The notes under the pieces were generated by a model. The model ran no database searches and was not told the origin of the DNA. It saw only the letters and a program-made list of their open reading frames with translations. The position numbers and the translations under genes are program-made. Shown here piece by piece: positions 1-58,453 of a DNA stretch of 61,391 bases (the stretch's first letter is position 1; each line of letters starts with the position of its first letter). The stretch comes from Gammaproteobacteria bacterium (GTDB taxonomy: Bacteria; Pseudomonadota; Gammaproteobacteria; S144-34), in the NCBI GenBank assembly GCA_026989495.1, contig JALSJE010000074.1, positions 1-61,391 of the forward strand, in the 5' to 3' direction.

Positions 1-148
1 AATCCGCTGCGCGGATTGATCAGCGCGATGGCGCTTCGCGGTCCATTTCGATTTTCCGGTTGTCGTCATGCACTTCCCTGTGCATGGGCCGTCCCGCGGC
101 CGTCCCTGGCCGCGGGAAAGGTCTGAAAAATCGGATTTTTCAGACCTT
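1..148 (-). repeat. Nested-hairpin mosaic element, copy 1 (truncated by window edge)
   Basis: Reverse orientation: H1 118-148 (AAGGTCTGAAAAATC/GATTTTTCAGACCTT), H2 CCGCGGCC-GTCCCT-GGCCGCGG, H3 CATGCAC-TTCCCT-GTGCATG, start of H4 at window edge; ends 2 nt from hom stop codon. Confidence 0.9.
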
Positions 149-150
149 AT

Positions 151-2853: not shown

Positions 2854-3231
2854 ATGAAGTTCAGCCTCGATATCCCGGACTTCGCCTGCCCCATCCGGGC
2901 CTACGCGCCCGGGCGGGTGACCATCGGCGAGGAGACCGTCACGCGCAGCGTGGTGGTGCTGCCGGACCGGCTGCTGCCGGACTGGCCGCCGCGCCGCCCG
3001 GAGGAGCTCACCCGCGAGCGCCTGCTCGCGCTCGCCGAGCTCGAGGTCGAGGTGCTGCTCATCGGCACCGGCGAGCGGCTGCGCTTCCCGGACCCGCGGG
3101 CGCTCGCCGAGCTCACCGCGCGGGGGGTGGGCGTGGAGGTGATGGACACGCCTGCGGCCTGCCGTACCTTCAACATCCTCGCCACCGAGGGGCGCCGCGT
3201 GGCCGCCGCCCTCATCATCTGGAAGGGCTGA
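2854..3231 (+). CDS. Mth938-like domain protein (DUF498 family)
   Basis: 125 aa, RSVVVLPDRLLPDWPP...EVEVLLIGTGERLRFP...VEVMDTPAACRTFNILATEGRRVAAALI typical of family. Confidence 0.85.
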   Translation: MKFSLDIPDFACPIRAYAPGRVTIGEETVTRSVVVLPDRLLPDWPPRRPEELTRERLLALAELEVEVLLIGTGERLRFPDPRALAELTARGVGVEVMDTPAACRTFNILATEGRRVAAALIIWKG

Positions 3232-3395
3232 AAAATCGCGATTTTTCAGCCCTTCCCCGCGGCAAGCGAGGCCGCGGGACGGCCCATGCACAGGGATGTG
3301 CATGACGACTCAAGGAAAATCAGGATGGACCGCGAAGCACCTCAGCGCTGATCAATCCGCGCAGCGGATTGATCAGCGTTTCCATCAGAGTTTCC
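3221..3395 (+). repeat. Nested-hairpin mosaic element, copy 2
   Basis: 36-bp perfect palindrome GGAAGGGCTGAAAAATCGCGATTTTTCAGCCCTTCC at 3221-3256, H2, H3, H4 (3349-3375). Confidence 0.92.
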
Positions 3396-3455
3396 ATCTG
3401 ACGCGAGGCGTCCTCCCGGATCCAATCACGTCGAGGCCGGAACGTCGCCCGCGGG

Positions 3456-45581: not shown

Positions 45582-45788
45582 GGAAGGCCTGAAAAATCTC
45601 GAAAACTCTGTCGGTTGGTCTGAAAAATCTCGATTTTTCAGACCATCCCCGCGGCCAGGGACGGCCGCGGGACGGTCCATGCACAGGAAGTGCATGACGA
45701 TACGACGAAAAGTCGAAATGGGCCGCGAAGCGCCATCGCGCTGATCGATCCGCGCAGCGGATAGATCAGAGCTTCCATCAGAGTTTCC
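45582..45788 (+). repeat. Nested-hairpin mosaic element, copy 3 (with duplicated partial H1)
   Basis: Partial H1 at 45582-45602, full H1 TGGTCTGAAAAATC-TC-GATTTTTCAGACCA at 45616-45645, H2, H3, H4-like tail. Confidence 0.9.
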
Positions 45789-52099: not shown

Positions 52100-52206
52100 G
52101 GAAGGGCTGAAAATCGCGACTTTTCAGCCCTTCCCCGCGGCAAGCATGGTCGCGGGACGGCCCATGCACAGGGAAGTGCATGACGAGCGGATTGGTCAGG
52201 GTCTCC
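52100..52206 (+). repeat. Nested-hairpin mosaic element, copy 4 (internal deletion)
   Basis: H1 52100-52134, H2, H3, then catgacga joined directly to gcggattggtcagggtctcc (H4 left arm missing). Confidence 0.85.
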
Positions 52207-52439: not shown

Positions 52440-52529
52440 TGGCGGAGGGGGTGGGATTCGAACCCACGGAGGGCGTGAGCCCTCAACGGTTTTCGAGACC
52501 GCCCCGTTCGACCGCTCCGGCACCCCTCC
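52440..52529 (-). tRNA. tRNA-Ser(CGA)
   Basis: GGAGGGGTGCCGGAGCGGTCGAACGGGGCGGTCTCGAAAACCGTTGAGGGCTCACGCCCTCCGTGGGTTCGAATCCCACCCCCTCCGCCA; encoded CCA, anticodon at 52493-52495. Confidence 0.96.
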
Positions 52530-52592
52530 GATAGCCACCCGCGGTGGCTCACCCTGGCCGCCATGGCCGCCATCGAGACGGCCATGGCGCCT

Positions 52593-52785
52593 CCTCAACG
52601 GTTTTGACTCGCGCCATCCCTGGCGCTCGCCCTCCGGGCGCCGCGCCGGCACGCAACACCCACGACCCGCCAGACACCCACCTGCCGCCTTGGCCAGCCC
52701 CCTCGCCGGGCCGGCGCGGCGTCCAAATCGGCTCTCCTGCCGATTTGTCGAGACCGCCCCGTTCGACCGCTCCGGCACCCCTCCG
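52593..52785 (-). pseudogene. Interrupted, 3'-truncated second copy of tRNA-Ser(CGA)
   Basis: 52748-52785 is identical to the tRNA 5' half (52493-52530, 38 nt). 52593-52605 (cctcaacggtttt) is identical to 52481-52493. They are separated by a 142-nt insert (52606-52747); variable arm, T arm and 3' acceptor absent. Confidence 0.85.
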
Positions 52786-58203: not shown

Positions 58204-58207
58204 CTAA

Positions 58208-58440
58208 GGAAGCTCTGAAAAATCGCGATTTTTCAGAGCTTCCCCGCGGCCACGGACGGCCGCGGGGCGGCCCATGCACAGGGAAGTGCATGACGACTCA
58301 AGGAAAATCAGAACGGCCGCGAAGCACTACAGTGATGATCAATCCGCGCAGTGGATTGATCAGGGTTTCCTGGAAAATCCAAATGGCCGCGAAGCGCTCC
58401 AGCGCTGATCAATCCGCGTAGCGGATTGATCAGAGTTTCC
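58208..58440 (+). repeat. Nested-hairpin mosaic element, copy 5 (tandemly duplicated H4 tail)
   Basis: 36-bp perfect palindrome GGAAGCTCTGAAAAATCGCGATTTTTCAGAGCTTCC at 58208-58243; H2, H3; two successive H4 units. Confidence 0.92.
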
Positions 58441-58453
58441 TTAAGCTAGCCGT

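Follow-up and report, generated by a model that had tools for sequence, protein, structure and literature searches.

Paired arm changes in the terminal hairpin of a gammaproteobacterial MITE family

Insertion sequences of the IS5 group generate a 4-bp target duplication, have ends starting GGAA and use a YTAR target. Bacterial MITEs are short, non-autonomous, intergenic elements with terminal inverted repeats (TIRs), target duplications (TSDs) and a strong predicted RNA fold (PMC10969869). REPINs of Pseudomonas fluorescens, built as doublets of REP units and linked to RAYT tyrosine transposases, are small mobile hairpins in which compensatory changes are common (PMC3116915). In RNA genes, template switching is a known one-step route to compensatory changes in stems (PMC8794818).

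The hairpin described here, H1 (58208-58243), is the left-terminal hairpin of a non-autonomous element of ~163 bp, a MITE, in a 61,391-nucleotide stretch of gammaproteobacterial DNA (contig JALSJE010000074.1; the window). The element has all of the features of bacterial MITEs given above, but each of its ends forms a palindrome of its own in addition to the end-to-end TIR pairing. Searches of PF05598, PF01609 and PF13586 turned up no parent insertion sequence, in the sense of a transposase that shares the element's ends and could mobilise it; such a parent is not needed for an element to count as a MITE. The two transposases that were found, L193 and L195, were rejected as parents because their ends are unrelated. 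The IS5 group is a possible relation: with it the element shares the 4-bp TSD and GGAA ends, and a relative in genome G017 has CTAG repeats; the targets of the H1 element show no YTAR consensus, and the DDE_Tnp_1 transposases found in the genus have other ends. From the REP/REPIN class, which lacks target duplications and uses an IS200/IS605-like mechanism, the element differs in that a 4-bp TSD is present and no REP unit was recognised; it is best filed as a MITE. Template switching is a mutation mechanism rather than a family and, for the H1 element, a candidate only. The novelty lies in the family itself and in the measured retention of pairing among orthologous copies, the signs of it at single copies being unusually clear; elements of this kind, and paired arm changes in one, were known before. 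Among the papers listed by a literature search with the MITE end sequence, all were unrelated, no Rfam family reached its gathering score (best match 20.8 bits, 70 being required), and plasmid records gave no match.

Structure, copies and mobility of the element

The complete unit (GGAA...TTTCC) at 58208..58370 on the plus strand lies between the divergent genes guaB (IMP dehydrogenase) and xseA (exonuclease VII large subunit). It has four hairpins and ends of the form GGAARnnCTGA, in the layout GGAAGCTCTGAAAAATC(loop)GATTTTTCAGAGCTTCC-CCGCGGCC...GGCCGCGG-CATGCAC...GTGCATG-spacer-CTGATCAATCC...GGATTGATCAGAGTTTCC. H1, with the sequence GGAAGCTCTGAAAAATCGCGATTTTTCAGAGCTTCC, is followed on the same strand by H2 (CCGCGGCC...GGCCGCGG; 58244..58265), which is almost invariant, by H3 (CATGCAC...GTGCATG; 58274..58293), and by H4, the right terminal hairpin (TGATCAATCC...GGATTGATCA; 58334..58364). 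The terminal inverted repeats read GGAAGnnCTGA at the left and, with the right end reversed, GGAAACnCTGA. Size (~163 bp), the lack of evident coding capacity and the interspersed copies are all MITE-like, and the copy in the window has a predicted fold of -83 kcal/mol (z -8.3). The element's right 70 nt are present again in tandem, 86% identical, at 58372..58441 (plus strand), and CTAA at 58204..58207 forms an imperfect target duplication (3/4) with TTAA at 58441-58444. We rejected H1 as an intrinsic terminator, i.e., a GC-rich stem followed directly by a T run: CCGCGG follows H1, and its T run lies inside the stem.

Within the window, CTGAAAAATC occurred nine times against 0.02 expected. Using a 28-base pattern with three mismatches allowed, we counted copies in three genomes: the one to which the window belongs (2.54 Mb), with 98, and two genus-mates, both gammaproteobacterial MAGs, with 41 and 43. 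The arms quoted for five copies in the preliminary description do sit where it had placed them. Besides H1 at 58208-58243, these include the copy at 3221..3395 (plus strand; H1 arms GGAAGGGCTGA/TCAGCCCTTCC, 3221-3256), which is placed right at the upstream gene's stop codon, has a 12-nt extra right end and is flanked by an exact TSD, ATCT (3217-3220 and 3396-3399). The copy at 45613..45788 (plus strand; TSD TGTC; arms TGGTCTGA/TCAGACCA from 45617) lies ~33 nt past the stop of a GDSL lipase gene. On the minus strand, the copy at 1..150 (H1 at 116-150; arms AAGGTCTGA/TCAGACCTT at ~119-147) is cut by the contig end and adjoins the 3' end of a homoserine dehydrogenase gene. The copy at 52100..52206 (plus strand) has an internal deletion, the two arms of its H1 (52100-52134) reading CTGAAAATC and GACTTTTCAG. 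Doubling of the right end also occurs: an extra ATCAGAGTTTCC closes some copies (3384-3395, 45777-45788), and the target duplication then flanks this addition. Immediately before the complete element, L034, L028, L091, L092, L096 and L106, and the window at 45589-45612, carry a further left H1 arm that belongs to another allele.

Exact 4-bp direct repeats lay outside the ends of 67 of the 142 copies with both ends readable, compared with 1-3 in offset controls, and their sequences varied (e.g., AGCA, TATT, GCGC). The region orthologous to the copy at 58208 was without the element in genome G001, as was that orthologous to the copy at 3221 in both G001 and G002; the intergenic sequence has diverged, so these are comparisons of regions rather than of exact junctions. 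These results show that the MITE is mobile DNA that has come to occupy intergenic sites, duplicating 4 bp of target as it inserted, a context that the preliminary description, confined to the arms of H1, had overlooked.

A long form, with ~126 extra nt between H2 and H3, was seen only in G001 and G002 (L141:581-868; also L143, L151, L159, L160, L162, L165, L166, L167, L172 and L175). Where the upstream flank is shared (L143/L073, L139/L172, L148/L175), one genome had the long form and the other the short, which suggests either chimeric assembly or exchange among copies.

When 37 genomes were searched at the DNA level, G017 alone matched beyond the element's own genus, and at one hairpin end only. 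This genome, from another gammaproteobacterial family, has a MITE family of its own (L196-L205; end GGAAGCTCTGATCAATC; 45 pattern matches) with a palindromic right end and, in several copies, CTAG target repeats. A sequence-based literature search found no published description of it, and plasmid records gave merely marginal matches.

Reciprocal changes in the H1 arms

From five copies, it had been proposed that the outer arms of H1 differ and yet remain paired, around a core invariant in four of the copies. Five copies are too few to establish reciprocity, but it is clear in 171 copies from the three genomes (142 distinct), with reciprocal changes at pairs 2 (GC/AT), 4 (AT/TA/GC/CG), 6 (CG/GC), 7 (CG/TA/GC) and 9 (TA/CG), and rarer, single cases at pairs 5, 8 and 13. 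In the true register, 95.4% of the arm pairs in 134 distinct H1 sequences were Watson-Crick. That register held 14 further reciprocal Watson-Crick pair types in 152 cells, whereas registers slid by 1-4 positions held only 3-7 types in 4-22 cells; the larger alignment did not, therefore, reveal the non-reciprocal arm changes that would have spoken against the proposal. The core was nearly fixed across the family, but it is constant only in relative terms, since other copies vary in the loop and at pairs 10-14, and also in the lengths of their A/T runs.

On a tree made from the remainder of the element, we inferred ~62 compensated double changes among 132 left-arm and 117 right-arm changes, whereas same-branch coincidences at non-partner positions averaged 0 to 1.3; ectopic recombination between copies may inflate both the event counts and the tree lengths. 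One candidate picked by eye as a compensated H1 change (L046/L169) was rejected, because bases 11 and 21, where the changes fall, do not pair with each other. The preliminary description had suggested R-scape as a check, and in a home-made, R-scape-like test with a tree-aware null, the best four of 11,476 column pairs were all hairpin partners (H1 pairs 7, 6 and 4, and one pair in H4), although only H1 pair 7 was individually significant (E<0.05). The preliminary description had not noticed that the second terminal hairpin, H4, also covaries. About half of the H1 double changes were transversions, with no wobble intermediate; template switching, or shuffling of alleles between copies, would explain these.

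Retention of pairing and its possible causes

Orthologous copies in sister genomes allow selection to be separated from mutational symmetrisation. In 14 insertions common to G001 and G002, we counted substitutions at 5/363 positions in the H1 arms, 2/308 in H2 and 29/606 in the spacer, i.e., H1 and H2 evolved 3-7 times more slowly than the spacer (Fisher tests: H1, p=0.006; H2, p=0.0007; both together, p=6e-5). Mispairs per copy stayed level as terminal branches lengthened (slope 0.16, where ~26 was expected), and copies on branches of 0.08-0.15 had 0.37 mispairs rather than the 2.7 expected. Because mispairs did not rise with branch length and the orthologous H1 and H2 changed slowly, pairing appears to be maintained at individual copies, and not only at source copies. 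An apparent excess of uncompensated singletons was discarded, as it came mostly from truncated or misplaced left ends; after cleaning, 40% were paired.

Relative to both flanking genes, called by GC3 alone, 51 copies were oriented along and 18 against (p=9e-5), and 66 copies began downstream of a gene that reads towards them, the left end lying a median of 35.5 nt past its stop codon. Among plus-strand mispairs, those of the G.U type outnumbered those of the A.C type (70 versus 42 inferred events, p=0.01). Within H1 the excess was 43 versus 23 occurrences, or 24 versus 15 distinct events (p=0.2, not significant), in counts that exclude truncated or misplaced left ends and that showed no strand bias with these included; in H4 it was weak. 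Taken together with the maintained pairing and the strong predicted fold, the orientation bias, the proximity to stop codons and the G.U excess favor selection on the hairpin in a co-directional RNA. The orientation bias was similar in TSD-positive copies (23 versus 10) and in the remainder (28 versus 8), and since it is already present in the former, it would possibly also follow from an insertion preference.

The preliminary description had offered selection on the fold or a copying process that regenerates symmetry, without choosing; compensatory changes proved to be family-wide, and the data lean to the former. The reason for the symmetry is less settled than the covariation itself, but selection on the folded hairpin, probably as plus-strand RNA, is the favored one. 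The arms would covary since variants with paired arms are those retained. After insertion, pairing would be kept at single copies, most plausibly through selection on the plus-strand hairpin as part of the transcript of the gene that ends shortly before the element, where the hairpin may act as an mRNA 3'-end or read-through structure. Compensated alleles would spread later through transposition and recombination of the elements, and some double changes may come from template switching during replication. We would give this account as a whole, a MITE end hairpin with its pairing retained by selection in the upstream gene's transcript and compensated alleles spreading, an even chance of being correct. 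Covariation is usually taken as proof of function in RNA genes, and here it is shown by a parasitic-looking repeat; if single copies are indeed selected, MITE hairpins would be retained as parts of host transcripts. More tentatively, the family may have been domesticated across the genome as an RNA hairpin module that lies downstream of genes and shares their orientation, with purifying selection at dozens of copies and template-switch mutation together keeping H1 paired.

The palindrome could instead be a cis requirement of transposition, either as a transposase site or as a terminal hairpin, so that copies whose arms are broken would not multiply and paired alleles alone would spread. Both ends of the MITE are palindromic, the G017 MITE with the same terminal motif also combines palindromic ends with CTAG target repeats, and common variants were paired more often than rare ones (94% versus 30-40%). 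However, old, orthologous copies also keep their pairing, and the transposase families searched held no member with matching ends; we consider this explanation rather unlikely.

Slightly less probable still, in our judgment, is quasipalindrome correction, in which replication stalls at the palindrome and switches template to the other arm, copying changes across in the absence of selection. Such a switch can yield compensatory changes in one step (PMC8794818) and would account well for the many H1 double changes that are transversion pairs. It would also fit some loops that have grown into longer perfect palindromes (e.g., L049, TTCATGAA; L053, CCGG; L165, ATCTG/CAGAT) and the extra left arm upstream of some copies. 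Yet in the 14 orthologous insertions approximately five changes affected one H1 arm alone and no H1 pair was cleanly compensated, the one clean pair being in H4 (L036/L057). Moreover, a strand-blind mechanism would not predict the orientation bias or the G.U excess, and the slowest stem, H2, barely varies.

That a few symmetric founder alleles were simply multiplied or shuffled between copies, with no force on pairing, is very improbable: alleles at pairs 6 and 7 do group by subfamily, and recombination between copies is visible in the long or short forms at orthologous sites, but at least 14 different reciprocal pair types over 8/13 positions would be needed, several of them private to one copy (L066, L094, L108, L152, L170), and slid registers show no comparable pattern.

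Elsewhere in the window, the end of a tRNA-Ser(cga) gene (52490-52530) is repeated 255 bp away at 52745-52785 (41 nt, 98%), resembling an attachment-site duplication or a tRNA remnant.
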